From NCBI GenBank assembly GCA_021740625.1, contig JAIOZK010000001.1:248001-312000 (forward strand): 64,000 bases of DNA. The letters are read 5' to 3'. This document shows, one piece after another, positions 9,064 through 44,595 of the stretch. Numbering within the stretch: position 1 is the first letter of the stretch; every line of letters starts with the position of its first letter. The notes beneath the pieces are model-generated. The model was not told where the DNA came from and did not search any database. It was given only the letters and a program-made list of their open reading frames with translations. The position numbers and the translations under genes were made by a program. This DNA is from Bacteroidales bacterium. Its GTDB lineage: Bacteria > Bacteroidota > Bacteroidia > Bacteroidales > JAIOZK01.

Positions 9064-9077
9064 CTGGATTCAGGATA
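9064..9077. repeat. two-unit heptamer repeat
   Basis: CTGGATT followed by CAGGATA, then CTG. These are the same word family as the repeats at 4899 and 9365. Confidence 0.4.
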
Positions 9078-9364
9078 CTGTTTGCTTGGTAGGTTTAACA
9101 GAAAATGAAACATTATCATTTTTCATGTAAACCTTAGTAGACTGCAATGCAATTGAAACAAAAAAAATCTTATTGCCGCATATTTTTGATTTTCCAACGT
9201 ACAATGATCAGGGAAGTAAAACCGCTAAATAACAAAGTTTCTCATCGCTTAGACAGATACCCGGTGATCCGCTCGGCATTGCCTGTCAATGATTCTTTAT
9301 CTTGTCATACAAAATTATCAAGTCCATCATAACTATGTAATCATAGATTTCTGGTTTCATGCGT

Positions 9365-9385
9365 TATCAAGAATCCAGTATCCAG
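9365..9385. repeat. three-unit heptamer repeat
   Basis: On the minus strand the units are CTGGATA, CTGGATT and CTTGATA, just past the stop codon of the deacetylase-like gene. Confidence 0.5.
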
Positions 9386-9392
9386 CATCATT

Positions 9393-12032: not shown

Positions 12033-12283
12033 TATTTTTCAAAAGCCTTTAAAATACCTTTCATGGTCGTAAATTCCGCATCTTCCACTTTCTCTTCAAA
12101 ATTCACTTCCCTTTCAAAATGTTCTTCCATGGCTGTTACCATATCGACAAATGCCATGGAATCGAGCAATCCTGACTGGACAAAATCAAAATCGCGCCTG
12201 ATCTCCCTTTCATGGATCCCCAATATTTCTAAGCGATCTTTTAGATGATTTAGTATAAAATCCCGGATCTCAATTTCGTTCAT
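12032..12283 (-). CDS. acyl carrier protein
   Basis: An 83-residue acidic four-helix carrier protein. The phosphopantetheine attachment site is visible as 'GLLDSMAFVDM', with Ser42 as the modified residue. The surrounding residues differ from fatty-acid AcpP (DSL), and the genetic coupling to an adenylation enzyme (four-base overlap) points to a dedicated carrier similar in role to DltC or a stand-alone NRPS carrier. It would be charged by the adjacent adenylation enzyme and donate the acyl or aminoacyl group to one of the acyltransferases in the operon. A phosphopantetheinyl transferase must act from elsewhere. Confidence 0.88.
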   Translation of the reverse strand: MNEIEIRDFILNHLKDRLEILGIHEREIRRDFDFVQSGLLDSMAFVDMVTAMEEHFEREVNFEEKVEDAEFTTMKGILKAFEK

Positions 12284-13836: not shown

Positions 13837-15037
13837 GGAAGATCTTCCTGGTTTTGTTTTCCAAAATTAGTGAATCGCAGAAATATTTGGTAGCCCAGTT
13901 CGGAAAGGCAAAAGGTTCATACTTGCCCCAGATTGGGAAAGAACCCGGCAATGCCCCGCGGGTATCGGTTTTATCATATTTCCCCCTATTCTGAATATAG
14001 ATGAGCAGGTCGATCATTTTTGCCGCTGCATCAAAATATTCCCTGTTATTTTTAAGTGCAGCAAGTTTCAGCCAAACAATGGCGATCTGGGCGCATCCTG
14101 TATTCATCATGTATTCTCTTCCTTTCCAATCCTTATCAAAGCGGTTGTTCAGGTAATTGTTTTCAATAAACTTATGCAGGAGTACATCCGTTGGAATGCA
14201 AGCAGATTTGATGTATTTGTCATCATGCAGCGCCATTCCACTATCCAGCAGCCCGTCAATGGTATAGGCGATGGTATGCAGGATGGGTTGGTCATTTCTT
14301 TTAATGGTATTATCGCAATCCTCGAACCAGCCGTTTTCGAGCTGTTTCAGGTCAACGATCCAGTTTAGGTTACGGATAGCATATTTTTTATACTTAACAT
14401 CCCCACTTACTTCTGAGAGGTAAATCAACGGGGCATCCACGTAACTGTCGTAAACCCTGGCCTGTCGCATGAGGGCATTTTTTTTCCAGTAGCCGTTTTC
14501 ATGTTGAATTTCACAAAGCCAGTCCCCTGCCCTCTTAGCAGCATTCAGGTATTGTTCCTTGCCGGTTTTTTTATAAACAGCCAGCATCCCCCGGATAACC
14601 TGCCCGGTGTTAAAAACGACCGGGGGTTTGTTTTCATTCACCTTTCCACCCTGCCAGCCTCCGTTTTCATTTTGTATGCCGAGCAGCCATTCGGCAGCAT
14701 CGATCGTTCTTTCCTCAACAATTTCTTCCGGCAGTACGTCCAGGCTATTGAACAAGGTAGGAATGATATAGCCTGTGGTTTCCGGGTAGGATGCAGACCA
14801 GCCATTGATCAAATGAAAAGAACCCATGCCATCATCCTGCATCATCTGCTGTGCCCTCAGCAACCAATATACGGCAGCCTGCAATGCCTCTTTTTTCTGT
14901 TCGGGGCTGTTCACCGGCACTTCTACTATACGTTTTCGCCTCGATCTTCTGAAATCATTCAGCAGGAAATTGCGCTTTTGATTGTTGATCAAAGCCAAAG
15001 AGAAATACCGGGCATATAATTTCAGGCTGTTTAACAT
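13826..15037 (-). CDS. alpha/alpha-toroid repeat protein, first gene of the carrier-protein operon
   Basis: A 403-residue protein made of repeated helical hairpins carrying a Q-N/H-E-N-G-x-W signature ('LLGIQNENGGWQGG', 'LCEIQHENGYWKKN', 'IVDLKQLENGWFED'), the pattern of alpha/alpha-toroid folds seen in terpene cyclase-like and glycoside-hydrolase-like proteins. Homologues in surface-polysaccharide loci are often mislabelled delta-aminolevulinic acid dehydratase; nothing here resembles HemB. The function is unknown; lyase, hydrolase or binding activity on a glycan or polyprenyl substrate is possible. There is no signal peptide. A -7 promoter element lies 18-25 bases upstream of the start, and all five downstream genes overlap head to tail, so this is the operon's first gene. 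Confidence 0.75.
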   Translation of the reverse strand: MLNSLKLYARYFSLALINNQKRNFLLNDFRRSRRKRIVEVPVNSPEQKKEALQAAVYWLLRAQQMMQDDGMGSFHLINGWSASYPETTGYIIPTLFNSLDVLPEEIVEERTIDAAEWLLGIQNENGGWQGGKVNENKPPVVFNTGQVIRGMLAVYKKTGKEQYLNAAKRAGDWLCEIQHENGYWKKNALMRQARVYDSYVDAPLIYLSEVSGDVKYKKYAIRNLNWIVDLKQLENGWFEDCDNTIKRNDQPILHTIAYTIDGLLDSGMALHDDKYIKSACIPTDVLLHKFIENNYLNNRFDKDWKGREYMMNTGCAQIAIVWLKLAALKNNREYFDAAAKMIDLLIYIQNRGKYDKTDTRGALPGSFPIWGKYEPFAFPNWATKYFCDSLILENKTRKIFHAE

Positions 15038-15054
15038 TTGTTTTCTGTTCTATG

Positions 15055-15062
15055 CAAATATA
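15055..15062 (-). promoter_or_regulatory. candidate -7 promoter element of the six-gene operon
   Basis: TATATTTG on the minus strand fits TAnnTTTG and lies just upstream of the toroid gene. It is the only such element ahead of the six overlapping genes. No -33 TTG is evident. Confidence 0.45.
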
Positions 15063-15155
15063 AGGAAAATGGACATCTGTAGATATTTCATTGTACTCAT
15101 AAAATATTCGTCATAATGAAATAAGAATTGTCAGGACAGCTCTCTATCTTTTTAC

Positions 15156-15163
15156 TATTTTTG
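15156..15163 (+). promoter_or_regulatory. candidate -7 promoter element for dnaX
   Basis: TATTTTTG matches TAnnTTTG, 23 bases before the dnaX ATG. A TTG at 15128-15130 is somewhat too far upstream (25-base spacer) to be a clear -33 element. Confidence 0.4.
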
Positions 15164-27492: not shown

Positions 27493-27969
27493 TTATTTCC
27501 GGTTGATCAGGCAAACAGCAAAAGCTGCCACGGCATCACCCTCGCCAATAAGCCCCGTCTTTTCGTTCGTTTTTGCTTTTACGGAAATTTGAGAAGTTTC
27601 CAGTTGCAACACAGCTGCAAGCTGTTTCCTCATGGATTCAATATGGGGTGCCAGTTTCGGTTTCTCGAGGATCACGGTAGTATCAATATTTTGGATGGAA
27701 TATCTTTCTTTTTGTAACAACAACATAACTTCCTTTAGGAGTTCTTTGCTATCAACATTTTTATAATCACTGGATGTATCCGGAAAATGCTTTCCTATAT
27801 CGCCCAAACAGGCTGCTCCAAGCAAAGCATCGCAAATTGCATGTATTAATGTATCTCCATCCGAGTGTGCAACGGCACCTTTCTCATGCTCGATCCTGAT
27901 CCCCCCCAGCCAAAGATCATATCCTGATTCCAGCCTGTGCAAATCATATCCAAAGCCTGTCCGGAGCAT
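27493..27969 (-). CDS. ispF: 2-C-methyl-D-erythritol 2,4-cyclodiphosphate synthase
   Basis: A 158-residue enzyme of the MEP isoprenoid pathway; it cyclises CDP-ME 2-phosphate to MEcPP and releases CMP. The metal ligands are visible in 'GYDLHRLE' (Asp and His) and 'HSDGDTLIHAICDALLGA' (second His). 'FPDTSSDYKNVDS' and the C-terminal 'KAKTNEKTGLIGEGDAVAAFAV' are family hallmarks. The length is standard, and the trimeric enzyme is cytoplasmic. It directly follows porV (two bases between genes), an arrangement that places it in the same transcript as the type IX secretion genes. Confidence 0.97.
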   Translation of the reverse strand: MLRTGFGYDLHRLESGYDLWLGGIRIEHEKGAVAHSDGDTLIHAICDALLGAACLGDIGKHFPDTSSDYKNVDSKELLKEVMLLLQKERYSIQNIDTTVILEKPKLAPHIESMRKQLAAVLQLETSQISVKAKTNEKTGLIGEGDAVAAFAVCLINRK

Positions 27970-27971: not shown

Positions 27972-29183
27972 TTAATTATTCTGTCCGCTGAAAGCTTCAA
28001 AATCGAGGTAAAGTGAAAAACGAAGGGTGTTTTCCAGGGGATTCTGTTGCTCAAGCGGAATGAGGTACGAAACATCCAGTCCGAAAAGATTGTAACGCAA
28101 TCCGGCTCCCAGGGTAAAGAATTTCCGGTTGCCTTTGGTACGGTCTTCATAGAAAAATCCACCCCTGATGGCAAACTGCTGATCATACCAGTATTCGACA
28201 CCGAATGAATACATCAGTTCACGCATTTCCTCACTGAAACCTCCTGGTGCATCATAAAAAGACTGTAACATTCCCTTGATAACCGAAACATCCGGATCCA
28301 TTCCTTCAGCAACTACAAGTTTATTGTCGGGACCGATAATAAAATTCCCGGAAGTATCCTTGGCATAGATCGGAGGAGTAGGTACAAGCAACTTATTGAT
28401 GTCCACCATAAATGAAAGCTGATTGAATTCGTCCAGATCGAGTGTTATGGAAGGTCCCAATCTGAGGTTGGTTGGCAGAAAATCTTTGGTGGCATCATTA
28501 TCTGTATAGGATATCTTATTACCAATATTGGAAATGTTTACCCCCCATGCAAGTACTGCATTCACATCAAAAAGGTTGATTTCTTTGCGCCAGTATACTG
28601 AAACATCAGCAGCAACGGATGTACCCGCCTTGGTATCCTGTGAACCTACTGTTTGTCCGAGTGTAAGGTTGGAATAGATAAAACGGCCTGCTACAGCGCC
28701 GGAAAGGTTGGTTGTCAGTTTCCGGGAGTAAGTTGCCGCGAATGAAAATTCATTGGGCTGGTAGGTACCAATGTCAAGTCCGTTATTGTCGGTAAATACA
28801 ATATCACCCAGTGAGAAGTAACGCAATGAAGCAGCGATCACCTGGTTCTGGTCGAAGCGATAATAACCTGTGAGGTAAGCAAGGTTGATGTCATTTACCA
28901 GATCTCTTAGCCAGGGACTGTAACTGGCTGATATTCCCATTTTCCCGTCGATGAAAGCGTATTTGGCAGGATTCCAGTGCATGCTGTTTGCATCCGGGGT
29001 GGAAGAAACGCCTGCATCTCCCATGGCTCCGCCTCTTGCATCAGGTGCAATGGTAAGAAAAGGAACTGCTGTTGTGATGGGATTAAGCTCTAAATCTTTT
29101 CCACTTAATTCGTCGTAATTGCCCTGTCCGGAAACCTGAAAAATGATTAGGAATAAACCTAAAAATGAAGCTAATTTTCTCAT
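27972..29183 (-). CDS. porV: type IX secretion system outer membrane protein PorV
   Basis: A 403-residue FadL-like barrel protein. After the signal peptide ('LIIFQVSGQG') comes the PorV hallmark 'PFLTIAPDARGGAMGDAGVSSTPDANSMHWNPAKYAF'. PorV shuttles cargo from the translocon to the attachment complex and binds the C-terminal sorting domains that PorU removes. It lies directly downstream of the two PorU-type genes on the same strand, the usual porU-porV neighbourhood in this phylum. I chose the ATG at 29183, which gives a standard signal peptide; an ATG at 29201 is also possible. The assignment is firm. Confidence 0.94.
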   Translation of the reverse strand: MRKLASFLGLFLIIFQVSGQGNYDELSGKDLELNPITTAVPFLTIAPDARGGAMGDAGVSSTPDANSMHWNPAKYAFIDGKMGISASYSPWLRDLVNDINLAYLTGYYRFDQNQVIAASLRYFSLGDIVFTDNNGLDIGTYQPNEFSFAATYSRKLTTNLSGAVAGRFIYSNLTLGQTVGSQDTKAGTSVAADVSVYWRKEINLFDVNAVLAWGVNISNIGNKISYTDNDATKDFLPTNLRLGPSITLDLDEFNQLSFMVDINKLLVPTPPIYAKDTSGNFIIGPDNKLVVAEGMDPDVSVIKGMLQSFYDAPGGFSEEMRELMYSFGVEYWYDQQFAIRGGFFYEDRTKGNRKFFTLGAGLRYNLFGLDVSYLIPLEQQNPLENTLRFSLYLDFEAFSGQNN

Positions 29184-29250
29184 TCTATTTAAATTATGCA
29201 TGTGAAGGTAAAATTAATGAGTTTTAAACGTACGTATATTCTTAATATTG

Positions 29251-32200
29251 TTAATTGATGATGACTAATTTATTTGCCAGGATTCTCTTGTTACCGTCTG
29301 CATCGGTAAGTTTCAGGATGTAAATATAAGTACCGTTATCGAGAAGCTCACCCTTTACATTCCTGCCGTTCCATTCAAGCTCGGCTATGGAATTACCGTC
29401 TTGAAGAACACCGGCAAAATCGTTCAATAAACGACCCTGCAAAGAAAATATTTTTAATTCAAAGTTCAAGGGACTTTCATAGTCATCTGTTCGGATCTTA
29501 AAAGTAGTATTTCCCTGGAAGGGATTGGGATAATTTGAAATTTGCGAGTTCGCGACCTGGGTGTTACCAATCACGAAATCAATGCTTTTTGTACTGGAAT
29601 TATTATACACATCCCATACTTTCATACTCAGCGTATGTGTCCCTGCATCCAGATTATTTAACGGAAAAATAACACTGCCGCTGGTAAAATCATCCATGGC
29701 AGGTGTGTAAAAATCATTTACGATATAGGAATTCCCGGGATCATTGTCGATGGTAATGCTGATGTCGTGGCCAATTCCGTTCCCAAAAAAGTTAATGCCA
29801 CTGGGATCAGAAATATCTGCAATCAAAACCGGATCTATCCCCACCTGGTCTCCGGATTTAAATCTGGTATGATTCAAATACATGTCCAGATCAGGCCCTT
29901 CATGATCAATTGCTGGATTCTCGTTATATCCTCCCACACTGACAACTTTGTACCCGTTGGCATCTTCATAGGTAGCCGTATCCAAAGCATAATAAAGTAT
30001 CTTTCCATTACCATAGGAAAAATCAATATCCCGGGGCACTACGAATTCAAATTCAAAATCACCCCTGGTAACACTGGCTCTGCCTTCGAATAGACATTTA
30101 TCTCTTACCTTGTAATTGACTGGTGAACTATTATTATCATTGCCTAATGTACTGTATGCAGTGTATTTATCATAAATCCTGGGAACCACATATCCATTAA
30201 AATCTTCCAGTTTGTTGCCGTTTGCATCAAGGATTTTTCCTTTAATGTAAATCTTTGAAAGGGCTTTCAATGTGTCTATCTGCCTCTGTTCACCTGACTC
30301 AACCGAGGTTGTGATGGCACGGTAGCGGGGGTAAGCCAGCTTCATCGCAGGATCACCCAGCAAAACAAAGTTCTTGATAAAATTACTGGATACTTCTTTT
30401 GACAGCCTCATAATATCGCCTAACCTGGGCATATCGCCCCGTATGCTGTCGAATGTATTTTGATAAAGACGTTTGTTGAGGGTGAAGTTTGTGGAAGAAT
30501 ACGACAAACGGGTGGTGGTAAACAAAGCGATCCCACCTCCTTGCTCATTCAGGAATACCAGCTCGCCAGCCGACTCAAACTCCTGGTTGTCGAAACGACT
30601 GAACTCGCATGTAGCCGTGATAAAAACAGGAAGTTTATCCAGATTATCCCAGGAATTTACGGTAGGAATATTGAGTACTTTTTCAGATGACCATCCCAAT
30701 TCTCCTCCATGACCCGTGTAATTGAAAAGCAGAGCTCCATTTCTAACTGCTTCGTCAATATTTTCATTCACTTCCGGGTAACGGTCTCCACCGGGCAGGG
30801 ATATTTGCTGGTAAGCATCATGATATATTTTATTCACATGGTATTGCTTACTGGCCGTATCAATGATGGCTGCCAATTTTTCGGCCTGGTTCACATGTGT
30901 GTTTCCGTCCTCATCATCTGCGATAAAATAAATCTCATTTCGCCAGTCATCCGTGTTTTCAGCCGATGCAACAATATAGGACCTGATCTTTTCCACGGCC
31001 ATCCCGGCCTGTTCTGCGGTGTTTACCGGAATCCTTCCAACACCAAGATCAGGAGACCCGATTGCATCAAATCCTTCAGTAGGATCCATCAAGGCATAAA
31101 AATCATCCGTAACAAATGAATAGGTTATTTTTAAAGATTCTGTAGACTGGTAGGCGGTAATAAAATTTGGATACAATCCTTCATCCCTGCCTTTGGGATC
31201 ATAGGATCCATCGCCGAAAAGCATCAAATACCTGGGCCTGTTAACATTTGTGGCCCGGTTGTATATCATCTTCACATAATCTCTTATTGCTGTCGGATCC
31301 TGCTTACCGGATGAAAACTCATTGTAAATCTGTTCTGTACTTGCCAGCACATAGCTCAAACCATCATAATTCTGATGCAGGTCTCCAAGTTGCTTTGCAT
31401 ACTCTTCGAACAAAGGATGTGTAACAATGATCAGTTCGGCAGGCTGATGGGCATGCAAATTTTGGTTTGGGATCTCACCGATCACCTCAACCTGCTCAAA
31501 GCTGCTGCCATCCCATGCAACAAATTCACGGATGGTATCCGTTTTCAGGACAAAACTCATTTCCTCACCATTGTTATTCACCTGCAATGACACAATGTTG
31601 GATGGATCGGTCACTTCCCATACATGCATCTCCTCAGCGGGATTGGCCATAAGAAATTCCGATATCCTGTTGGCCCCTATGGAAGAAGGATCGCTGAAAA
31701 ACATTTGTCCGCCGTCAAATACCAGATCCCTGCTCAGGTTCATCTCAACATAATCAATCCAAAGATTGGAATTATTATCATAAGGTGTGAAATGCAGATC
31801 GATCATCAGCTCATCCCCGGTAGGTGTAAAAGAATAGGTCTTTGTTTCAGACAGGGAATACTGGGAACTCCCCAGATGCACCGTGGGCAATTCAATCTCG
31901 TCAATTTCTTCATCATTTACTTTTACATTTAAAAAGCTTTCATTGGGCGTGCGCACAGTGTAGGAAAGGTTAAGCCTGGCTGTTTTTTCGCTGTTGATGT
32001 TTTCAAATCCGAAATCCAGACTGAGCGTATTTTCATCTTTCAGAGAGGGGCCTAACCAGAGCTTACCGGTTTTCAGGAGATTGTGCAGGTCTTCTTCGTA
32101 TAATTTAAATTCAGCAAATGTAGCAGACTGATAATTTGCTGTCAGCCCGGAGGCTGCTTCCTGCTCAATTCGTTTTCCTTCGGCCTGCCCGTAAGTCAGG

Positions 32201-33069
32201 TAGTAATATGTATGGTCGTCGTACAAATGGGTCTGATGACTGTAAAGCTTTTTAAAAGGATTATATTCCCAGCGGACAGCGCCCAAACCGTAAAACAAAA
32301 TATAATCACCTTCATTAAATACATTGTCTTCATCACCATGAATAAAGATTGCATTTTCAAGCAGGTCATCCGTTCTTGCAACATTGTTCCTTTCGGGCAA
32401 CATTCCGTTGCCATTTCCAAACAACTGAATTTTGTCCGGGTCAATTCCATCCAGATTGATCCCAGCTTCAAGCAGATCTTCAAAACTGATTTTATGTATC
32501 CCGCTATTGTGAATCTTTATTTTGATCCAATTGCCTGAGGAAAGCACTGATTCGTCAGCAATAACATTGTTCCTGGGATTCGCTATTCCGGCTGTCTTTT
32601 CTGTTATTTCCACAGAAAGCATGAATTTCTGCAACAACTCCAAAGCTTGTGCAGCAGGATCCAAACGCATAGGCAAAACCTGCACGAACAATTGCCACCC
32701 TTCATTGTATTTCTCAATTTTATAAGATGTCAGGGGAATCGAATCAATCCTTTGATGATCAATAAGTGCTGCATTTTCAGGCAGTTGAACATCCTGATAG
32801 ACACAATCGTTTAAGCTGATATCCACCTCTACATGATTTGATTCCAGGGGTATGGCTTTGGAATAAACGGGCAAAAGCCCAAATGCATCCGAAAGTTGAT
32901 AGCCCTGGAATGTAATGGAATACTCATTCATTTCAGGAAACAAACTTTCGCTTTGTGGTTCATTCCACCTGAGCTGAACCTCTTGCTTTACTTGTCCGTA
33001 AAGAAGATTGGATAAAAGTATCGCCACGAAAAGAAAAATAGCTGTATGTTGTTTACTCATTCTATTCAT
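29251..33069 (-). CDS. porU: type IX secretion C-terminal signal peptidase PorU (first copy)
   Basis: A 1272-residue gingipain-family (C25) protein. It has a signal peptide, a beta-rich N-terminal region (about 30-480), the peptidase domain (about 540-900) with the catalytic dyad His787 ('YTGHGGELGW') and Cys821 ('ITATCEFSRFD'), Ig-like domains, and a type A C-terminal sorting domain ('NYPNPFQGNTTF' to the end). PorU is the sortase-like enzyme of the attachment complex: it cuts off cargo sorting domains and joins the cargo to A-LPS. Both catalytic residues are intact. It lies immediately upstream of porV and downstream of a second, full-length homologue. As the copy next to porV it is the likelier orthologue of canonical PorU. 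Confidence 0.93.
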   Translation of the reverse strand: MNRMSKQHTAIFLFVAILLSNLLYGQVKQEVQLRWNEPQSESLFPEMNEYSITFQGYQLSDAFGLLPVYSKAIPLESNHVEVDISLNDCVYQDVQLPENAALIDHQRIDSIPLTSYKIEKYNEGWQLFVQVLPMRLDPAAQALELLQKFMLSVEITEKTAGIANPRNNVIADESVLSSGNWIKIKIHNSGIHKISFEDLLEAGINLDGIDPDKIQLFGNGNGMLPERNNVARTDDLLENAIFIHGDEDNVFNEGDYILFYGLGAVRWEYNPFKKLYSHQTHLYDDHTYYYLTYGQAEGKRIEQEAASGLTANYQSATFAEFKLYEEDLHNLLKTGKLWLGPSLKDENTLSLDFGFENINSEKTARLNLSYTVRTPNESFLNVKVNDEEIDEIELPTVHLGSSQYSLSETKTYSFTPTGDELMIDLHFTPYDNNSNLWIDYVEMNLSRDLVFDGGQMFFSDPSSIGANRISEFLMANPAEEMHVWEVTDPSNIVSLQVNNNGEEMSFVLKTDTIREFVAWDGSSFEQVEVIGEIPNQNLHAHQPAELIIVTHPLFEEYAKQLGDLHQNYDGLSYVLASTEQIYNEFSSGKQDPTAIRDYVKMIYNRATNVNRPRYLMLFGDGSYDPKGRDEGLYPNFITAYQSTESLKITYSFVTDDFYALMDPTEGFDAIGSPDLGVGRIPVNTAEQAGMAVEKIRSYIVASAENTDDWRNEIYFIADDEDGNTHVNQAEKLAAIIDTASKQYHVNKIYHDAYQQISLPGGDRYPEVNENIDEAVRNGALLFNYTGHGGELGWSSEKVLNIPTVNSWDNLDKLPVFITATCEFSRFDNQEFESAGELVFLNEQGGGIALFTTTRLSYSSTNFTLNKRLYQNTFDSIRGDMPRLGDIMRLSKEVSSNFIKNFVLLGDPAMKLAYPRYRAITTSVESGEQRQIDTLKALSKIYIKGKILDANGNKLEDFNGYVVPRIYDKYTAYSTLGNDNNSSPVNYKVRDKCLFEGRASVTRGDFEFEFVVPRDIDFSYGNGKILYYALDTATYEDANGYKVVSVGGYNENPAIDHEGPDLDMYLNHTRFKSGDQVGIDPVLIADISDPSGINFFGNGIGHDISITIDNDPGNSYIVNDFYTPAMDDFTSGSVIFPLNNLDAGTHTLSMKVWDVYNNSSTKSIDFVIGNTQVANSQISNYPNPFQGNTTFKIRTDDYESPLNFELKIFSLQGRLLNDFAGVLQDGNSIAELEWNGRNVKGELLDNGTYIYILKLTDADGNKRILANKLVIIN

Positions 33070-33112
33070 TCATTTAAACAATAGACACAAAAAGCCTGAA
33101 CCCGGTTGCACC

Positions 33113-36100
33113 TTAATAATTTGTTAAAATAAGTTTGGCCGTTTTTTCATTCACTTCTCCACGCTCATTTTTCACAATCAGCCGGTAAAGATAAAAACCC
33201 TCTTTTAATTTGGCACCATTTACCGTATTACCTTCCCACTTTATGGGCGCGGATTTATACCCTCCTGTCACCATTTTTCGCTTGATTTTACTTACCAGCC
33301 TGCCTTGCAGGGAGAATATCTGAATTTCAACATCAAGTTCTTCTCCTGCCTGATTATGCTCAAACACAAAAGAAGTTTCATGTGCAAAGGGATTGGGAAA
33401 ATTCATCAGTTTCTCAATCCTGAAATCCGAGGATTTCACCACCACAAAATCAATTTCGCTTTCGGAGGAATTATTATACACATCCCAGACTTTGAGTTTG
33501 AGGGTATGTTCTCCCTCGGGTAAATTCAGGAAAGGATACAATATGCTTCCATTGGTATAATCCCCCAGGTCGGCCTCATAAAAATCATTCAGGACATAGG
33601 GTGTTTCATTTTGGCCATCGATCACCGCGGTAATATCATGTCCTATGCCATTGCCTACTGTGTTGATCCCACTTTGATCCGAAAGAAAAGCCAGCAGGTG
33701 AGGATCCTGATCGGTAATTCCGCCTTCGATAAAACTGGTATCATTCATAAAAAGGCTTATTTGGGGTCCTACCGTATCCGGGGCATTGATATCACTGAAG
33801 CCACCCACGATAATATTTTCATTATACCCTGCACCATCTTTTCCCTGATAAGCAGCATACATGCTGATGCGTCCGAAACCATAATTATAGGCAATGTCTT
33901 TGGGCACAATAAAGGTAAATTCAAACTCACCATGCTGAGCTGGTGTTTTTCCTTTGTACACTATATTCTTCCTGAGATAAAAATCTTTTGGGGTACTGTT
34001 GTTATCCTGCCCGTAAGTAGTCAGTCGGCTGGCTTTGTCAAAAACAGTGGTATAAACAGTACCATTGAAATCCTCTAGTTTGTATCCGTCGCAACTGTAA
34101 ACAGTACCTTTCATATTAACCTCAGCCAGTGCTTTCAGCGTATCCGGCACCTCACTTACTTCAAATCCGTTGATTTCGGTAGTGATCACAGAATCGAGTG
34201 GATATGCCATTTTGAGCGCTGGATCACCCAACAATACATACTTTCTTTTATTAATCCCGGTAGAAACAGCCGTTTTGGACATTCTCAATATATCGCCCAG
34301 TCTGGGATATTCACCTTCGATTTTCTCAAAAGCTTTGCGATAGAATTGCTTGTTCAGAGCCAGGTTTGATCCGGCATAGGTGGCCCTGGCTGTAGTAAAC
34401 ATTGCAATGGCTCCACCTTGCTGGTTCAGGAATACGTATTCACCGGCCGAAGTGCGGGTGGGGTCATCGTATCGGGCAAACTCACAGGTGGCAGTGATGA
34501 AGATTGGCAGGTTATCATAATTGGTCCAGTTGTTTATATCACTAATGGACAGGATTTGCTCGTGCGCCAGCCCGAGTTCGCCACCATGACCTGTATAATT
34601 AACCACCAGGGCGCCCTGTTCCATCCTGTTGTTTAATTTTTCGGTTACCTCCGGGTAACGCTGACCGCTCGGGGTACTTTCCTGTGTGTAAGAATCCAGG
34701 TATATTTTGTCGATATTTAAGTTTTTTACCTCCATATCAACATACTCGGCCAGTTCTTCTGCCTGTCTGACATGCAGGTTGCCGTCTTCGTCGTCGGCAA
34801 TAAAACTTACCCATGTGCGCCAGGGTCTCATCACATTTTCAGGATTGCCGGCATAATGCAATATCTTATCCACGATGGCATCTGCCTCCTGACTGCTTCT
34901 TACAGGTATTCTTCCGATACCGAGATCCAATTCTTCAACAGGAATATTCAGACCTTCACCTTCATCCAGCAAACCATAATAATCATCTGTCACATAAGAA
35001 TTGATCATGTCGTAAGATGCAACCGACTCCCAGCTTGGGACAAAGTTGGTATTTTCCGGCAACCTGTCTTTATAATCATATGAGGCATCCCCGAATAGCA
35101 TCAGGTATTTGAATTCATTTCCATCCGAACGATCGTAGAGCATTTTCATAAAATTCCTGATGGCTGTAACATCCTGGGCTCCTGAAGAAAATTCATTGTA
35201 TACTTCCTGCGGAGTACAAAGAAAAATATTCATATTCTCATCGTTCCTGTGAAAATCAGCGAGCCTTTTGGCAGCATTCATAAAACCCGGGTAGGCGATA
35301 ACAACCATCTCAGGTGTTGGTATCCCATGGAGGTTCTGATTGGCAACTTTTTCGACAAAATCAGCTTTGAGGAAAGCCGAGCCATCGTATGCAAGAAATT
35401 CTTTCAAAACATCCGTTTCTGCCTTAAACCGGTAAGTAGAACCGCTGTAACTACCTTTGATTTCTCTGGGTTGAATCGGATCTGTGACATCCCAGACACG
35501 CAAATTCGCGCTGGCCTCACCGATATTGAATTCTGCTACCCTGTTAGTTCCTACTGATTCTGTACTTCTGAAGAGGAACTGGGCCTTTCCCTGTTTCAAT
35601 TCACGGATGAAGTTCAGTTCCAAATAATCCAGCCATGAGGTGCCGCTTGAATGAGTCCTTATATAGTCGAGAACCAGGTCAATTTTATTCGAAGCCGGGT
35701 CAAAGCTGGCATTCATTACTTTGCTACGTGCAAAATCATTGAGCGATCCCTCGATAACTTTTTGAATCAACACCTGTGAAATGGTACTGCCACTTGCAAT
35801 TAGCTTGAAAGAACTGCTTTCAAACGAGCGGGCCACAACATTCGCCTTTACCTTCACCGGAAAAGATGTATTCAGGTGCTCAATCGTTTTGCTGTATTTA
35901 AACTCATCATTTCCCAATGGCTCCAACCACTTGCGGCCAGTCCCGAGAATATTCACATCATCATTCTTGTGAAAAAGAAAATCATTGTAATTATTGATAC
36001 TGATGTTGGAGAGCATGGAATTATTGTCGACCGTTTCGATTCGCCTTCCCGATCCCATATCTGTCGTAATAAAATAATAGGTATGATCGGAATACACATT

Positions 36101-36925
36101 GAAGTTTTCATGAAAGGTATTGTCGGCAGGATTAAAATACCATTTTCCCGGAGCCTGACCATAAAACAAAATATAATCACCCGGATCAAAACTGTTATCA
36201 TTTTCTCCGGCCACAAAGATCGCATTCTGCATCAGGTCGTCATATACAGGCGTATCATTCGATTCCGGCAACATGCCACCACCGTTACCATATACATTAA
36301 TATTCCTGGGATTGATGGCATCCACATCCAACCCCATCTCCGTAAGGTCATTATATGTTATTTTGTATATTCCGTTTTCTGACAACCTGATCTTATACCA
36401 GTTTCCGGTAGCAAGCACTGAGTTTTCAGCATAGTCCCGGATACTTTGCATTTCAGGTGTTACCGCTTTCAGCCTGATGTTTAAATCGAACTTTTTTAGC
36501 AGATACAAAGTATCAGTCTGAAAGTCATACATGAGGGGGTGCAGGGATACATTCAGGATGCGGTCATCTCTGGTTTTGCCCGTGCTAATCGTGCTTGTAA
36601 TCTTTTCCGGAAGTGAGTGCAAATTTAGTTTTTCATATTCTCCCAAATAAATAGCATCAAATTCTTTATTTAGGACCTCAACTTTCGCATGACCCCTGTC
36701 AGTTGGCAGTACAATTCTTTTCTGATATGCGGGGATTGAAAAAATACCTTGTTTATATATGGCATCCTTGAAGTGAATTGCCTGAGAAAGATGTTCATTG
36801 CTTTCAAGTTCGTAATGATCGATCTGCCAGGAGATTTGACAGGAAGTTCGGATACTGTCCTGGGAGATAAGGGACAGATGAAAGGCCAAAACAATTAATA
36901 AAAGCAAAACTTTTCTATAATTCAT
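33113..36925 (-). CDS. second PorU-type C25 peptidase, tandem paralogue
   Basis: A 1270-residue protein collinear with its neighbour over the whole length: signal peptide, N-terminal beta region, C25 peptidase domain, Ig-like modules and C-terminal sorting domain ('NFPNPFAHETSF'). The catalytic dyad is intact, with His780 ('YTGHGGELGL') and Cys814 ('ITATCEFARYD'), at the same 34-residue spacing as in the other copy. It is clearly diverged, so this is an old duplication rather than an assembly artefact. Possible roles are a second sortase with different cargo specificity or a backup. It begins the minus-strand porU2-porU-porV-ispF run and diverges from porP. Which copy is the true functional PorU cannot be told by eye. 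Confidence 0.88.
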   Translation of the reverse strand: MNYRKVLLLLIVLAFHLSLISQDSIRTSCQISWQIDHYELESNEHLSQAIHFKDAIYKQGIFSIPAYQKRIVLPTDRGHAKVEVLNKEFDAIYLGEYEKLNLHSLPEKITSTISTGKTRDDRILNVSLHPLMYDFQTDTLYLLKKFDLNIRLKAVTPEMQSIRDYAENSVLATGNWYKIRLSENGIYKITYNDLTEMGLDVDAINPRNINVYGNGGGMLPESNDTPVYDDLMQNAIFVAGENDNSFDPGDYILFYGQAPGKWYFNPADNTFHENFNVYSDHTYYFITTDMGSGRRIETVDNNSMLSNISINNYNDFLFHKNDDVNILGTGRKWLEPLGNDEFKYSKTIEHLNTSFPVKVKANVVARSFESSSFKLIASGSTISQVLIQKVIEGSLNDFARSKVMNASFDPASNKIDLVLDYIRTHSSGTSWLDYLELNFIRELKQGKAQFLFRSTESVGTNRVAEFNIGEASANLRVWDVTDPIQPREIKGSYSGSTYRFKAETDVLKEFLAYDGSAFLKADFVEKVANQNLHGIPTPEMVVIAYPGFMNAAKRLADFHRNDENMNIFLCTPQEVYNEFSSGAQDVTAIRNFMKMLYDRSDGNEFKYLMLFGDASYDYKDRLPENTNFVPSWESVASYDMINSYVTDDYYGLLDEGEGLNIPVEELDLGIGRIPVRSSQEADAIVDKILHYAGNPENVMRPWRTWVSFIADDEDGNLHVRQAEELAEYVDMEVKNLNIDKIYLDSYTQESTPSGQRYPEVTEKLNNRMEQGALVVNYTGHGGELGLAHEQILSISDINNWTNYDNLPIFITATCEFARYDDPTRTSAGEYVFLNQQGGAIAMFTTARATYAGSNLALNKQFYRKAFEKIEGEYPRLGDILRMSKTAVSTGINKRKYVLLGDPALKMAYPLDSVITTEINGFEVSEVPDTLKALAEVNMKGTVYSCDGYKLEDFNGTVYTTVFDKASRLTTYGQDNNSTPKDFYLRKNIVYKGKTPAQHGEFEFTFIVPKDIAYNYGFGRISMYAAYQGKDGAGYNENIIVGGFSDINAPDTVGPQISLFMNDTSFIEGGITDQDPHLLAFLSDQSGINTVGNGIGHDITAVIDGQNETPYVLNDFYEADLGDYTNGSILYPFLNLPEGEHTLKLKVWDVYNNSSESEIDFVVVKSSDFRIEKLMNFPNPFAHETSFVFEHNQAGEELDVEIQIFSLQGRLVSKIKRKMVTGGYKSAPIKWEGNTVNGAKLKEGFYLYRLIVKNERGEVNEKTAKLILTNY

Positions 36926-37096: not shown

Positions 37097-38104
37097 ATGT
37101 ACAAGGTACTGATAAAACTAATTATTACGACTACATTGCTCATGGGACTGGGAAAAAGTTATGCTCAGGATCCGAATTTTTCACAGTTTTATGCAAACCC
37201 CGTCTATTTAAACCCGGCATTGACAGGAGCTACGGAATGTGGCAGGATCATTTTGAATTACAGAAATCAATGGCCCTCTATCAGCAATGCTTATGTAACT
37301 TACAATGCCAGCTACGATCAGGTTATCAATGGCATCAACAGCGGCGTCGGATTATCTTTTGTCGGTGATGTGGAAGGAGACGGTGCCATCAACACCAATT
37401 ACATCAGCGGATATTACTCATACAAACTAAAGATCAGCGAATCAGTGATGTTGAGTGCAGGTTTTCAGGGCACTTATGTTCAACAAAAACTGAACTGGGA
37501 TCAACTGGTTTTCGGAGATCAGATCGATCCGGGTACAGGAAATATTAGCCCGATCTCATCGGAAACCCCTCCAGAGAATCTTGACAAATCCTTTGTGGAT
37601 TTTTCCACAGGAATGGTCATTGGTTACCTGGATAAGTTCTTCGGCGGTGTTGCAGTACATCACCTGACAGAGCCCAACGACGGCTTTTACAAAGAAACCG
37701 GCAGCAATTTGCCCATGAAGATCACCGTACATGGAGGCACCAACCTCAACCTGAGCCAGGGTGGCACCGGAGAGGGCTTCGGAGAGGACCTGATACTTTC
37801 CCCAAACCTGCTCTATCAGCAACAGGACAAGTTCCATCAGCTCAATGTTGGTGCATACGTTAAGAAATACCCTTTTGTCGGAGGGGTTTGGTTAAGGCAT
37901 AATTTTGAGAACGCAGATGCCGCCATCGCTTTGATAGGCATTACTTATAATAATTACAGGATTGGCTATAGTTACGACTTTAGCCTTTCCAAACTCAGCA
38001 ACCGGAGCGGTGGTGCACATGAGATTTCCTTTGCCTGGCAATTCTGCGTTTACAAAGGAGAAAATAGAAGAAAGATCAGGGCAATAAAAGCTCCAACATT
38101 TTAG
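37097..38104 (+). CDS. porP: type IX secretion membrane protein, PorP/SprF family
   Basis: A 335-residue outer-membrane protein. After the signal peptide ('GLGKSYAQDP') comes the family signature 'FSQFYANPVYLNPALTGA', and barrel strands continue to the C-terminus ('GYSYDFSLSKLSNRSGGAHEISFAWQFC'). PorP/SprF proteins belong to the T9SS outer-membrane complex or serve specific type B cargo. Several paralogues usually exist per genome, so this one may be the core PorP or a SprF-like copy; the position next to gldJ and the porU/porV block favours a core role. It is 46 bases ahead of gldJ, probably in one transcript. Confidence 0.9.
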   Translation: MYKVLIKLIITTTLLMGLGKSYAQDPNFSQFYANPVYLNPALTGATECGRIILNYRNQWPSISNAYVTYNASYDQVINGINSGVGLSFVGDVEGDGAINTNYISGYYSYKLKISESVMLSAGFQGTYVQQKLNWDQLVFGDQIDPGTGNISPISSETPPENLDKSFVDFSTGMVIGYLDKFFGGVAVHHLTEPNDGFYKETGSNLPMKITVHGGTNLNLSQGGTGEGFGEDLILSPNLLYQQQDKFHQLNVGAYVKKYPFVGGVWLRHNFENADAAIALIGITYNNYRIGYSYDFSLSKLSNRSGGAHEISFAWQFCVYKGENRRKIRAIKAPTF

Positions 38105-38150
38105 TTATTAACAAGAATTTTGAAAAAACAAATCATTAATTACATTGACA

Positions 38151-39635
38151 ATGAACAGGATTAACAGAAATCTCGCATTACTTTTCGTAATGACTGCAGC
38201 AATTTCCTTATTCTCTTGTAGTGAACCCACCCCGTCAAGAACCACAGGATGGCCTTACAATACCCCAGAGGCAGGTGGATTTGAAGTTTCCGAAACACGG
38301 GAACAATTTGCAGGTCCTGGCCTCATCTTTATTGAAGGTGGTACATTCGTGATGGGATCAACCCAGGAAGACCTTATGTTCGACTGGGATAATTTTCCCC
38401 GCAGGGTAACCATACCGTCCTTCTACATTGATGAAACGGAGGTCAGCAATCTTGCATACCTGGAATACCTGTACTGGTTGAACAGAGTTTTCGGCGAGGA
38501 TTACCCCGAGGTATACCGGGAAGCCCTGCCCGACACACTTGTTTGGCGCGACCGCCTGGCATACAACGAACCACTGGTCGAAATGTACCTCCGCCATCCT
38601 GCATATCACGACTATCCGGTGGTGGGCGTTACATGGGTGCAGGCCAACAATTACTGCTCATGGAGATCTGACCGTGTAAACGAAATGCTGCTCGTAGAGG
38701 AAGGAATCCTGGAATGGGACCCCGACCAGAAAAATGAAAACAATTTCAACACGGAAGCCTATCTTGCCGGACAATACGAAGGACTTGTAAAAGAAGGCAA
38801 GGAAAACCTGGATCCAACAGGTTCAGACATCCGGCAGGTGAGAATAGAAGATGGAATCCTTTTACCCCGCTACAGGCTTCCCACCGAAGCCGAATGGGAA
38901 TATGCAGCACTTGGTCTCATCGGGAACACGCTTTACGAAAGAGTTGTTGAAAGAAGAGTGTATCCGTGGAATGGACAACAAGTAAGAACAGACGACAGAA
39001 AATATTACGGTAGCTTTGTTTCTAACTTCAAACGGGGAAGAGGTGATTATATGGGTGTTGCCGGCAACCTGAACGATGGAGCTGACATCCCTGCTCCAGT
39101 AGGCAGCTACTGGCCCAATGATTACGGTTTGTACAATATGGCTGGCAACGTAAGCGAATGGACACTGGATGTTTATCGCCCCCTCTCCTACCTTGATTTC
39201 TCCGATTACAGCCCTTATCGCGGCAATGTTTTCAAAAAGAAAGAAGTTGATTTCGAAGGTTTCCTCGTGGAAAAAGACAGCCTGGGAAGAATACAATATG
39301 AAGAAGTTACAACAGAAGAAAGCCTGACCAGAAGAAATTATAGAAAAGCAGATAACATCAATTATAAAGACGGTGACCACCAGTCTCAGATCACCACTGA
39401 CTGGCTGTCTGAACCCGATCAATCAAACACTTCAGAAGAAATGTATGAATATGGTGTTACCTCATTGATCAGCGATGAAGCCAGAGTCTACAAAGGCGGA
39501 AGCTGGAAAGACAGGGCTTACTATCTCAGCCCTGGCGCCAGGAGATTTCTTGACCAGAACGAGGCTTCCTCAACCATTGGCTTCAGATGTGCAATGACAC
39601 GTGTGGGCAGTCCTGAGCCACCGCAAGGCCGGTAA
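38151..39635 (+). CDS. gldJ: gliding motility/type IX secretion lipoprotein GldJ
   Basis: A 494-residue lipoprotein (lipobox 'LFSC', Cys23) with a formylglycine-generating-enzyme-like (SUMF1) domain. Hallmarks are 'FIEGGTFVMGS', 'YRLPTEAEWEYAA', 'NVSEWT' and 'GGSWKDRAYYLSPGARRF'. The stretch after the lipid anchor ('TTGWPYNTPEAGGFE') is typical of GldJ rather than GldK. GldJ is an outer-membrane lipoprotein required for T9SS function and for stable GldK. The order porP-gldJ-murF, with porU/porV adjacent, matches conserved synteny in the phylum. The ATG at 38151 is preferred over a TTG two codons earlier. An intrinsic terminator follows. Confidence 0.92.
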   Translation: MNRINRNLALLFVMTAAISLFSCSEPTPSRTTGWPYNTPEAGGFEVSETREQFAGPGLIFIEGGTFVMGSTQEDLMFDWDNFPRRVTIPSFYIDETEVSNLAYLEYLYWLNRVFGEDYPEVYREALPDTLVWRDRLAYNEPLVEMYLRHPAYHDYPVVGVTWVQANNYCSWRSDRVNEMLLVEEGILEWDPDQKNENNFNTEAYLAGQYEGLVKEGKENLDPTGSDIRQVRIEDGILLPRYRLPTEAEWEYAALGLIGNTLYERVVERRVYPWNGQQVRTDDRKYYGSFVSNFKRGRGDYMGVAGNLNDGADIPAPVGSYWPNDYGLYNMAGNVSEWTLDVYRPLSYLDFSDYSPYRGNVFKKKEVDFEGFLVEKDSLGRIQYEEVTTEESLTRRNYRKADNINYKDGDHQSQITTDWLSEPDQSNTSEEMYEYGVTSLISDEARVYKGGSWKDRAYYLSPGARRFLDQNEASSTIGFRCAMTRVGSPEPPQGR

Positions 39636-42106: not shown

Positions 42107-42649
42107 TTAATCATCATCTTTTTCCCAATACGGGCAATCGGGATGTGGGCCACGGAAGCCTTTCGGTCCCGGACCAGGACGGTTAAAACCTTGGTGCATT
42201 CCTGTACCAAATCGTTGTGCATGCTGATCAAACATCATTTTTTGCTTCTCATTCAGGATTTCCCTGATCTTCTGCCGGTGGGCTGCATGTTTTTTCATAA
42301 CATCTCCCTGCAAATCGGTAATCTCATCAATTTTAGCATTGATCTTTTTAAGATCCACCTCATCGCCTGTACTTAGTGCTTTCAGTTCAGCTTTTTTAAT
42401 ATCCAGTTGGTTTTTGACAGGCGTTATTTCACTGAAAAAATCCGTCTTCATCTTTTCGATCTGTTCCTCTTGTCCTTCAGTCAGGTCAGGAAGTCTCATG
42501 CATAATGATTCCCTGTCCATGTTCCTGAAACCTTTCTTTTTCATCCTGCCCATACCTGGCTGGGCAAATACAGTACTTGCAGCAAGTACCATGATCAACA
42601 ATGCAATAACACCTGATCTAAAACTTTTACCATTCATTAAACTTTTCAT
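42107..42649 (-). CDS. Spy/CpxP-like periplasmic protein
   Basis: A 180-residue protein with a signal peptide ('AASTVFAQPG') and a helical region containing the LTxxQ-type motif 'LPDLTEGQEEQIEKMKTDF', followed by a second helix pair with 'INAKIDEI' and 'EILNEKQKMMFDQHAQ'. The C-terminus is rich in Gly, Pro, Phe and His and could bind metal. This matches Spy/CpxP/CnrX-like proteins that act as periplasmic chaperones or metal-stress sensors. It is the last gene of the sigma/anti-sigma operon, 31 bases after a second protein of the same general type. Confidence 0.85.
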   Translation of the reverse strand: MKSLMNGKSFRSGVIALLIMVLAASTVFAQPGMGRMKKKGFRNMDRESLCMRLPDLTEGQEEQIEKMKTDFFSEITPVKNQLDIKKAELKALSTGDEVDLKKINAKIDEITDLQGDVMKKHAAHRQKIREILNEKQKMMFDQHAQRFGTGMHQGFNRPGPGPKGFRGPHPDCPYWEKDDD

Positions 42650-42680
42650 TTTTTTATTGATTTTAATTATACTTTAAAGA

Positions 42681-43220
42681 TTAATTATTTCTCTTATCCT
42701 GTCCATGACGATATTTTCTTCCACGATCCGGTCCTCTCCTTCTATCATGAGATGGCATATCATCATATGCGCTCATGCTTTGAATAAATTTCCGGAAAAA
42801 CTCTTTTTGCTCGGGTCTTATCTTCCCCTTCATTTCCAGGAAATGGCGTACCGTTTGCATTTTCAGACTGCTGTGTAACTCGCCGTATTCTGCAGCCAGC
42901 TTCATAAGCTTTATCGTATCCGGTTCTGATTTTGTAATCTCCTCCAGGACCTCTCTGCGATTTATGGCCATGTCTTCACGAATTCCGGCTACTGCTTCTC
43001 TGAACCCCATGTGCATTTTAGCAAAACAATCCCTTTGCTCCTCATTGAGTTTCAAGCGATCCTGCAAAAAACGCGGTGGTCTTTCGGGAATAAATCCAGC
43101 ACTGAACTCAGGTCTTTCAAAAAACCTGAAGTAAAGCATGGTACCCATTGCTGAGGCATTGATAATCAGCAATACGATCAGGATCCATATCAGGGCTTTA
43201 TGGCTTTTAAAATAATTCAT
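42681..43220 (-). CDS. membrane-anchored periplasmic Spy/CnrX-like sensor protein
   Basis: A 179-residue protein with one N-terminal transmembrane helix (about 10-30) and a periplasmic helical domain with 'LQDRLKLNEEQRDCFAKMHMGFREAV' and 'KGKIRPEQKEFFRKFIQ', the LNxxQ/RPEQ pattern of heavy-metal sensors of the CnrX/ZraP group. The tail is rich in Arg, Asp and His. It starts at the last base of the anti-sigma gene (one-base overlap), which strongly suggests that it controls the anti-sigma factor or shares its signal. Metal binding is inferred only. Confidence 0.85.
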   Translation of the reverse strand: MNYFKSHKALIWILIVLLIINASAMGTMLYFRFFERPEFSAGFIPERPPRFLQDRLKLNEEQRDCFAKMHMGFREAVAGIREDMAINRREVLEEITKSEPDTIKLMKLAAEYGELHSSLKMQTVRHFLEMKGKIRPEQKEFFRKFIQSMSAYDDMPSHDRRRGPDRGRKYRHGQDKRNN

Positions 43221-43681
43221 TACTTTTCATTTTCATTCAACAAATATGATTCAATGGGTTCATTATCTATACCACCAAAATAAACAGACTCGGTATAATA
43301 ATCATATTCTGATTCATAGCCGTTGCCTGCAGCAGCCTGGTCGGTAAATTGGGTTCCGATCAAAATCCCGGATACAATGCTTAACAGTATGAGTAAACCT
43401 GCAGCAATGGTTTTCAGTACACCTGAAAAAACGGGCAGTAACTTCCCCGATCTTGCTACTTCTTCGTTTTGGATTTTCTGCTCCAGGCGGGTATAAAAGA
43501 ATGGGTTGGGCTGAACTTCGCTTTCACTCTTTAAAAAAGCCCATGTTTGCTTAAACTCAGAAAACATCTTACTGCATTCTTTACAGGATGAAAGATGTTT
43601 TTCAAACCTTTCTTTTTCATCCCGACTGAGATTATGCTCAAGGTACGCGGCAGTGTTTTTCCTGATAAATTTGCAATTCAT
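43220..43681 (-). CDS. membrane anti-sigma factor with zinc-finger (ZAS) domain
   Basis: A 153-residue protein. The N-terminal cytoplasmic part has the anti-sigma zinc-binding signature H-x3-C-x2-C ('HLSSCKECSKMF'), and a single transmembrane helix follows (about 85-108, 'IAAGLLILLSIVSGILIGT'). It should bind and hold the adjacent ECF sigma factor until a periplasmic signal arrives. I chose the ATG at 43681 ('MNCKF') because a promoter-like element at 43693-43727 overlaps the other possible ATG at 43693. The order sigma, anti-sigma, sensor, Spy-like suggests an envelope- or metal-stress response. Confidence 0.9.
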   Translation of the reverse strand: MNCKFIRKNTAAYLEHNLSRDEKERFEKHLSSCKECSKMFSEFKQTWAFLKSESEVQPNPFFYTRLEQKIQNEEVARSGKLLPVFSGVLKTIAAGLLILLSIVSGILIGTQFTDQAAAGNGYESEYDYYTESVYFGGIDNEPIESYLLNENEK

Positions 43682-43692
43682 TTCCTGTAACA

Positions 43693-43727
43693 TTTATACG
43701 TTTGACACCAAAAATTTTTAAAACTTG
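43693..43727 (-). promoter_or_regulatory. candidate ECF-type regulatory element before the anti-sigma gene
   Basis: On the minus strand it reads CAAGTTT, ten bases, TGGTGTCAAA, one base, GTATAAA. The same arrangement occurs ahead of the sigma gene at 44337-44373, so it is likely recognised by the encoded sigma factor or another shared regulator. Confidence 0.5.
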
Positions 43728-43730
43728 CAT

Positions 43731-44309
43731 TTATTTTATTTTTTTCTCATAATACCTGAACAGTTTTTTCTGCAGGTTCTTCCTTGCCCGATGGATCAAT
43801 GACTCCACAGAAGGCAGTGATACGTCCATAACAGCAGCAACCTCTTTATACGACATTTCATTGATCTTATTCAGCGTAAATGCAATCCGCTGGTTCTTGG
43901 GCAAACTGTCAATGCTGTTGTAAAGTATTTCCTTCCGTTCCTTGTTTTCAGGGTTATCCGGACTATCCCCGGGATTGTTGGCCAAAGATTGATCTGAAGC
44001 AGCCAATCTTCCTGTTATCATTTCCATGCTTCCCCAGTATTGTTTGCGCTTTTTACTTCTGATGAAATTTAGTGATTTATTCACAGCGATCCTGTATACC
44101 CAGGTTGACACTTCCGAATCCCCCCTGAACTTTTGTACAGACCTGTACACTTCCAGAAAAACGTCCTGCGAAATGTCCTGTGCATCCTCTTCATTATGAA
44201 CAAAACCATTGCTGGTTTTCAACACCATCGGGTAGTAAGCCTCTACTATCTGTCTAAAAGCATTCTGGTCTCCTTGCCGTATTCTATCAAGCAGTTTCCC
44301 CTGATCCAT
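43731..44309 (-). CDS. ECF-type RNA polymerase sigma factor
   Basis: A 192-residue sigma-70 family protein. Region 2 is visible in 'NEEDAQDISQDVFLEVYRSVQKFRGDSEVSTWVYRIAVNKSLNFIRSKKRK' and region 4 in 'LPKNQRIAFTLNKINEMSYKEVAAVMDVSLPSVESLIHRARKNLQKKL' (each shown here only as identifying segments). The reading frame extends upstream to 44495, but the first 62 residues there do not resemble a sigma factor, and a promoter-like element (44337-44373) lies within it, so the ATG at 44309 is the probable start. It heads an operon with its anti-sigma factor and two Spy/CnrX-like proteins. Confidence 0.92.
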   Translation of the reverse strand: MDQGKLLDRIRQGDQNAFRQIVEAYYPMVLKTSNGFVHNEEDAQDISQDVFLEVYRSVQKFRGDSEVSTWVYRIAVNKSLNFIRSKKRKQYWGSMEMITGRLAASDQSLANNPGDSPDNPENKERKEILYNSIDSLPKNQRIAFTLNKINEMSYKEVAAVMDVSLPSVESLIHRARKNLQKKLFRYYEKKIK

Positions 44310-44336
44310 GCAAATGATTTTCTTGTAAAAATTGCG

Positions 44337-44373
44337 TTTATACCCATTTGACACCATGAATTTAATAAACTTG
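44337..44373 (-). promoter_or_regulatory. candidate autoregulatory ECF-type element before the sigma gene
   Basis: Minus strand CAAGTTT, ten bases, TGGTGTCAAA, three bases, GTATAAA. It shares all three blocks and the ten-base spacing with the element at 43693-43727. Transcription from it would give a leader of roughly 25 bases before the ATG at 44309. Confidence 0.5.
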
Positions 44374-44595
44374 TACTGATATTCTATTTTTTTGAGCAAG
44401 ATTGGAAAAGTGAATTGCCTCCCTTGAAATTTGTTTTGGTTCAAAATTTCCAGATCGATAATGAATCCAGGCTTGCTAAGAAATAATTCAGGCAATTTTA
44501 AGTTATTTAACTAACATGAAAATGTTGGTAAAACAAAAGCTGTTTGCTATCGACAGTCACTTTATACTATAATTTTACATCCAAAAATTCAAAAT

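Follow-up and report, generated by a model that had tools for sequence, protein, structure and literature searches.

Two porU genes in front of porV

The stretch of DNA analysed here, 64,000 nucleotides of contig JAIOZK010000001.1 from a Bacteroidales genome (the window), carries on its minus strand two consecutive genes for PorU, the sortase of the type IX secretion system (T9SS). The upstream copy, porU-A (33113-36925), encodes 1270 residues, and the downstream copy, porU-B (29251-33069), encodes 1272 residues; a gap of 43 bases (33070-33112) separates them. On the same strand, 49 bases past porU-B, lies porV (27972-29201), the gene of the outer-membrane shuttle and anchor barrel (NF033710, 504.1 bits against a cut-off of 250), and the cluster continues with an ispF-like gene of the YgbB family (27493-27969; PF02542, 221 bits). 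An initial annotation of the window, made from the letters alone, had described two genes of about 1270 residues at this place next to porV, and the open reading frames and the porV match agree with it in position, length and neighbourhood. Upstream of porU-A and divergent from it lie a gene of the PorP/SprF family (37097-38104) and one of the GldJ type (38145-39635). Because a terminator scan found no terminator-like site in the gap between the two porU genes or in that between porU-B and porV, the three genes are likely co-transcribed as one operon, as their closeness and common strand also suggest. A promoter scan gave no excess over shuffled sequences (30 against 25.7, standard deviation 5.2). 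In Porphyromonas gingivalis, too, porU adjoins porV.

Both proteins, hereafter A and B, scored about three times the 420-bit cut-off of the NCBIfam PorU equivalog NF033707 (A, 1339.1 bits; B, 1206.8 bits). Their C25 catalytic domains (PF01364; residues 540-906 of A, 34208-35308; residues 547-911 of B, 30337-31431) match the Pfam model from its first or second position through its last. The sole sequence match in the PDB at E ≤0.001 was PorU of P. gingivalis (6za2; E of 2.9e-154 for A and 9.5e-140 for B), and both alignments run to no more than two residues from the end of its chain (1156 residues). The same entry was the first Foldseek match of the AlphaFold models predicted for A (residues 165-1270, mean pLDDT 86.5; E of 5.0e-87) and B (residues 170-1272, mean pLDDT 85.1; E of 9.4e-83). 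Overall, the predicted models superimpose on 6za2 with a TM-score of only 0.52-0.55 and a root-mean-square deviation of 15-18.5 over about 1180 columns, probably because the domain orientations differ.

The C-terminal sorting domain (CTD) that the initial annotation ascribed to both copies is indeed present in each, as judged from the coverage of NF033707, the 6za2 alignments and the strands of the models; it forms a beta-sandwich in A (33116-33400, start approximate) and spans 29254-29532 in B. The general sorting model TIGR04183 was just at its cut-off for B (23.1 against 23, residues 1180-1259), while A was not reported at E up to 0.001. The model of the N-terminal long form (NF052318), which is not universal among PorU proteins, gave 36.6 bits for A and 34.3 for B against a cut-off of 40. 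A and B resemble P. gingivalis PorU in the His/Cys dyad and in the arrangement of their domains from upstream of the catalytic domain through the CTD. They are identical at 484 of 1273 positions (38%), in keeping with their earlier description as diverged.

The C25 domain is common to A, B and nine other proteins among the 11 C25 matches of this genome, and one copy could therefore be a gingipain-like secreted protease or a PorU2 rather than a PorU. The gingipains (RgpB, 1cvr; Kgp, 6i9a) have the C25 catalytic fold in common with A and B but are cargo proteases, and the profile and fold matches to them are far weaker. When catalytic domains were placed in one tree, all 22 PorU rows, A and B included, were split with support of 98/97 from six of the genome's nine remaining C25 proteases, whose branches are long and one of which filled only 45% of the columns. 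The second copy therefore does not group with gingipain-like proteases, the placement that the initial annotation had named as fatal to its reading, and we rejected a gingipain-like origin for either copy. PorU2 (NF052324) was rejected likewise, since A (182.8 bits) and B (195.6 bits) fell far under its cut-off of 450, which no protein of the window genome reached in a profile search. NCBIfam's PorU2/PorV2 families (NF052324, NF052325) also combine a PorU relative with a PorV relative, but the pair in the window consists of two canonical PorU proteins. As both copies pass the PorU cut-off, a gingipain or PorU2 identity for either is hardly credible. Together with the trees described below, the equivalog score, the C25 domain with its dyad, the fold match, the sorting domain and the porV neighbour leave us almost certain that both are genuine PorU proteins from an old duplication, as the initial annotation had it for the type of enzyme.

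Spread and history of the tandem

We surveyed the order with a sample of 197 genomes, including that of the window, of which 182 had some match to NF033707 and 175 a match over the cut-off, with up to three candidates scored per genome. From 155 other genomes, chosen for a listed match, 160 stretches were fetched; 26 of the 182 matching genomes were not. The fetched genomes comprised 31 with intact tandems, three with tandems in which one member is broken or cut off, 101 with a single porU (one of them, in G150, interrupted by a stop) and three with two dispersed copies, and 17 could not be judged owing to contig ends. A copy was counted as single when one PorU had at least 1 kb upstream and either an adjoining porV or 1.5 kb downstream. 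An intact tandem therefore occurs in about one in five of the genomes fetched (31/155, or 32/156 with the window's own), and the 31 tandems span 23 families. The two genes lie less than 300 bases apart in 29 of the 31; in 25 the second copy is directly followed by porV, and no porV-like frame was found there in the other six. The family of the window consists of two genomes, both with exactly two PorU proteins over the cut-off.

The initial annotation held that T9SS genomes usually carry one porU. This fits a sample of 296 genomes from the phylum, where the window's genome alone occurs twice among the matches listed (at least 934 bits; mostly two candidates were scored per genome, and second copies weaker than this could exist), while in the order 31 of the 155 fetched genomes have two in tandem. 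The recurrence of the pair in many families suggests that its carriers rely on two sortases, against the single one of the species studied so far. Models of the T9SS rest on species described with one PorU, and "the porU gene" is an ambiguous term in about one in five of the genomes fetched. We found no report of two canonical PorU proteins in one genome in the literature, in a search that left most subscription papers and all preprints outside. A term search of the main text of a phylogenetic study of T9SS parts (PMC7323717) returned no words beginning with "duplicat" or "paralog". A related case is GldN/GldO of Flavobacterium johnsoniae, likewise a neighbouring, partly redundant T9SS paralogue (PMC9127263), though a ring protein rather than a sortase.

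The history of the duplication was drawn from two trees built under mixture models. In the main tree (IQ-TREE; 46 rows from 17 chosen loci of the 61 with pairs; bootstrap not settled), all 18 downstream rows of the 17 loci formed one clade (99/99), and 16 of the 17 upstream copies, together with one single copy, formed another (95/90). The remaining upstream copy, from G047, stood outside the A clade but carries the residues typical of A described below (lid and Lys895), and forcing all 17 upstream copies together was not rejected (p-AU 0.344). A larger tree (62 rows from 25 chosen loci, eight more than the first; SH-aLRT only) placed 23 downstream rows of 22 loci in one clade (99); from the same loci, all upstream copies but one (21 of 22) fell in another, together with one single copy (96). 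Its B clade also took in both copies of the loci from families f90, f28 and f102, a placement that may reflect long-branch attraction. A 320-row FastTree and an 82-row LG tree, on which this history does not rest, put several long-branched pairs elsewhere and gave no two clean clades.

Because downstream and upstream copies form separate clades, a single early duplication accounts for most of the pairs. At L286 and L295 (both f90), L293 (f28) and L098, the FastTree joins the two copies of the locus as closest relatives, and the LG tree does so at all of these loci but L295; porU was therefore also duplicated separately in several lineages. On the question raised initially, whether the duplication is lineage-wide, the 31 tandems in 23 families and the two-clade trees indicate a spread far wider than one genome. 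Over the 61 pairs, the identity between partners has a median of 41% and a range of 26-65%. Downstream copies were farther than upstream copies from single-copy references in all 17 pairs of the main tree (sign test, p 1.5e-5), which marks B as the faster-evolving of the two.

Several loci depart from the simple pair. Of 80 named loci, 34 were aligned with both an upstream and a downstream copy, among them L046, where three porU frames stand in tandem ahead of porV (4307-15163, plus strand) and the two downstream ones are mutual closest relatives. At L098 (6483-17950, plus strand), two PorV-family frames, two porU genes and another porV follow each other, so that shuttle and sortase are both multiplied. 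In G096, a genome of the window's genus, B has only 1136 residues against 1303 in its partner A (L170:6604-10011, minus strand), as if an extra N-terminal domain had been lost. Fewer than 1180 residues are found in 19 of the 62 downstream rows and in 12 of the 61 upstream rows, some of which are truncated by contig ends.

Catalytic dyad and positions that separate the paralogues

His780 and Cys814 of A (34586-34588 and 34484-34486, minus strand) share alignment columns with His787 and Cys821 of B (30709-30711 and 30607-30609, minus strand). The 34-residue spacing is therefore right, and the initial reading of two sortases with intact, identically spaced dyads stands at the level of sequence. 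Both residues are kept in all 61 upstream copies, 61 of the 62 downstream copies and all 197 single copies, and from this conservation A and B are very probably both active. A dead copy serving as a scaffold or regulator would have a precedent in the one exceptional downstream copy, but the two copies of the window and the other downstream copies keep the dyad, and we regard such a role as very unlikely here. The exception belongs to a separate duplication (L092:12828-16706, plus strand), in which Tyr and Ala replace the catalytic His and Cys of the downstream porU while the partner is intact; judging from these replacements, it is probably a natural dead sortase paralogue.

To describe the residues that tell A from B, we used 47 of the 61 pairs, namely those in the main FastTree clade or in a ten-locus group around L047, with label swaps within pairs as the control. 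Among the three best discriminators, position 849 of A is Thr in 47/47 upstream copies and Ala or Ser in 44/47 downstream copies, and the preceding position 848 is Ala or Pro in 43/47 and Leu in 39/47, respectively. The remaining one, position 895, is Lys in 43/47 upstream copies; its counterpart is Asn in 45/47 downstream copies, with a gap in the other two. In the window, these sites correspond to the loop RATYA of A (residues 847-851, 34373-34387), its counterpart RLSYS of B (residues 854-858, 30496-30510), Lys895 of A (34241-34243) and Asn900 of B (30370-30372), all on the minus strand. The motif R-[AP]-T-[YF] was found in 45 of 50 upstream rows and R-L-A-[YF] in 27 of 48 downstream rows, while the most frequent form among single copies is R-[LV]-V-[YF] (89/197).

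The contrast extends to some of the pairs left out of the comparison. At L212, L220, L227 and L245 the A and B loops and the upstream Lys are present; among their downstream copies, those of L220 and L227 have His instead of Asn at the second diagnostic site. In the loop, the copies differ as Thr and Ser at L264 and L287, and L272 has Thr in both copies; the contrast was not seen at L286, L293, L295, L298, L304, L092 and L098. Four single copies (L026, L034, L036 and L061), whose position in the trees is unsettled, combine a B-like loop (RLSF) with mostly A-type or single-type residues elsewhere.

A profile of A and its kin aligned residues 848-851 of A with D-Q-Y-W of gingipain R (1cvr; domain E 7.5e-6), which is Asp281-Trp284 when counted from the Trp284 and Met288 named in the literature. 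According to two papers (PMC9559808, PMC4357240), the P1 residue is contacted in gingipain R by Gln282 and by Trp284, the latter of which is also the lid of the S1 pocket. If the alignment holds, the paralogues would differ by near-fixed residues where the P1 side of the substrate would sit. P. gingivalis is described with one PorU, whereas the two of the window are distinguished by near-fixed residues in this lid-aligned loop and at position 895/900.

Attachment partners, cargo and division of labour

The survey of PorU partners covered 80 genomes, namely 34 two-copy genomes, in two of which one member is broken, and 46 chosen others, of which 44 have a single copy and two (G184 and G066) an undecided copy number. 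Each of the 34 two-copy genomes has one strong PorZ match; G095 has an additional weak one (27 bits) in a frame of 1122 residues. PorQ occurs over the cut-off once in 33 of the 34, and G079 has no match above it. Since neither PorZ nor PorQ is doubled, we rejected a duplicated attachment complex and regard two separate complexes as unlikely. In the window genome, a PorV equivalog and a PorQ each occur once, and a further protein exceeds the cut-off of the PorV/PorQ family. We do not tie this protein to B because weak matches to the PorQ model occur in one-copy genomes as well (e.g. G035, G061 and G139).

Elsewhere in the window genome, on contig C26, a 1444-residue protein with a PorZ-like C-terminal tail adjoins the barrel gene of this further PorV/PorQ-family protein (L308:5742-11188, minus strand), the two frames overlapping if the first ATG is the start. 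This is possibly another pair of protein and barrel anchor like PorZ-PorQ. All 150 scored cargo candidates of the genome, out of 232, have type A sorting tails. The window itself encodes an alpha-amylase-family protein with a T9SS sorting tail (60502-63330, minus strand).

In P. gingivalis, according to a review (PMC10202324), PorV delivers the cargo to PorU, which removes the CTD via a thioester and transfers the cargo to an amine of anionic lipopolysaccharide (A-LPS) or of the medium; PorU itself remains bound to PorV with an uncleaved CTD, and dimerisation inhibits it. In our reading, an old tandem duplication of porU in the order gave rise to PorU-A, upstream, and PorU-B, beside porV. By analogy with P. 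gingivalis PorU, each would be exported by the T9SS itself and held at the outer surface, bound to PorV with its own CTD uncut. PorV would deliver the cargo, the cargo CTD would be removed through a thioester on the catalytic Cys, and the cargo would be handed to an amine of A-LPS supplied by PorZ, for anchoring, or in the medium, for release. A and B would then cut or transfer different cargo junctions, side by side on the single set of PorZ and PorQ, a difference suggested by the near-fixed residues that distinguish them in the lid-aligned loop and at the neighbouring site.

We lean slightly towards the view that the old duplication yielded a division of labour on one PorZ/PorQ set, and two active sortases with shifted active-site specificity most likely share one attachment complex. 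Whether labour is divided by junction or acceptor, rather than the pair serving plain dosage, we hold to be an even question. The suggestion of the initial annotation that the copies serve different cargo or different anchors gains from the residues of the lid loop and gains nothing from the number of cargo proteins. A doubtful variant is that, in a sizeable part of the order, A and B share PorZ and PorQ and differ in acceptance, one anchoring cargo to A-LPS and the other releasing it or using a different amine; sortase identity, and not the cargo alone, would then be the switch between anchored and released proteins. A long-separated pair of sortases with intact dyads and one PorZ/PorQ set offers a direct comparison, with a short list of exchangeable residues.

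Several observations weigh against a division of labour based on the active site. The alignment with gingipain R is remote, and PorU of P. gingivalis is said to cut independently of sequence (PMC4804311), which weakens a role for S1 specificity; the review cited above gives a loose motif (PMC10202324). Of the top 40 discriminating positions, the catalytic domain (360 columns) holds 17, the immunoglobulin-like (Ig-like) region (247 columns) 14 and the CTD (104 columns) six. The catalytic domain is not enriched, with 17/40 against 20/40 for the Ig-like region and CTD combined (351 columns), and other surfaces have therefore changed as much as the active site; only the top three positions all fall in the catalytic domain. 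In the A clade, no fewer than three loci (L072, G110 and G092) have a single A-type PorU with porV straight after it and no B between, so B can be dispensed with and A seems to be the core copy; L110 and G094 resemble them, and no complete locus with B alone was seen among the loci examined. Finally, the median number of cargo candidates was 151 in the 34 two-copy genomes and 106 in the 46 others, a difference without support (p 0.46) in a comparison that used first-look candidates as a rough proxy, unconfirmed as tails, with at most 62 scored per genome. We accordingly rejected a link between two porU copies and cargo number.

The cargo comparison bears equally on the idea that two copies merely raise the amount of sortase to match a very large secretome and have diverged by drift. 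This would sit well with the uniform type A tails of the 150 scored candidates and with the greater distance of B from one-copy PorU in 17/17 pairs. It does not predict a median identity of 41% or opposed near-fixed residues, and the lack of a difference in cargo candidates between the two groups of genomes speaks against it, so we consider it improbable.

The spread of discriminating positions over the Ig-like region and CTD would suit a different arrangement, in which A and B form an obligate heterodimer in one complex and keep each other latent until both are on PorV; control of latency, not choice of cargo, would then retain both copies. P. gingivalis PorU is inhibited by hairpin-mediated dimerisation, according to the same review (PMC10202324), and 6za2 bears the title "dimeric latent PorU". 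The adjacency of the two genes, less than 300 bases apart in nearly all tandems, and the single PorZ and PorQ are also in line with it. One PorU is enough in one-copy genomes, however, and B is missing from the A-clade loci named above, which makes an obligate heterodimer unlikely. Between these readings, we continue to favour, by a little, two sortases with divided labour on a common PorZ/PorQ set.

Two further loci in the window lie apart from the porU genes. On the minus strand, 52580-54142 encodes a response-regulator receiver domain fused to a PglZ domain. At 42107-44495, also on the minus strand, two small proteins with weak ZraP/Spy-like matches stand beside a weak anti-sigma match and an extracytoplasmic function (ECF) sigma factor, and this group is perhaps an envelope-stress cluster.

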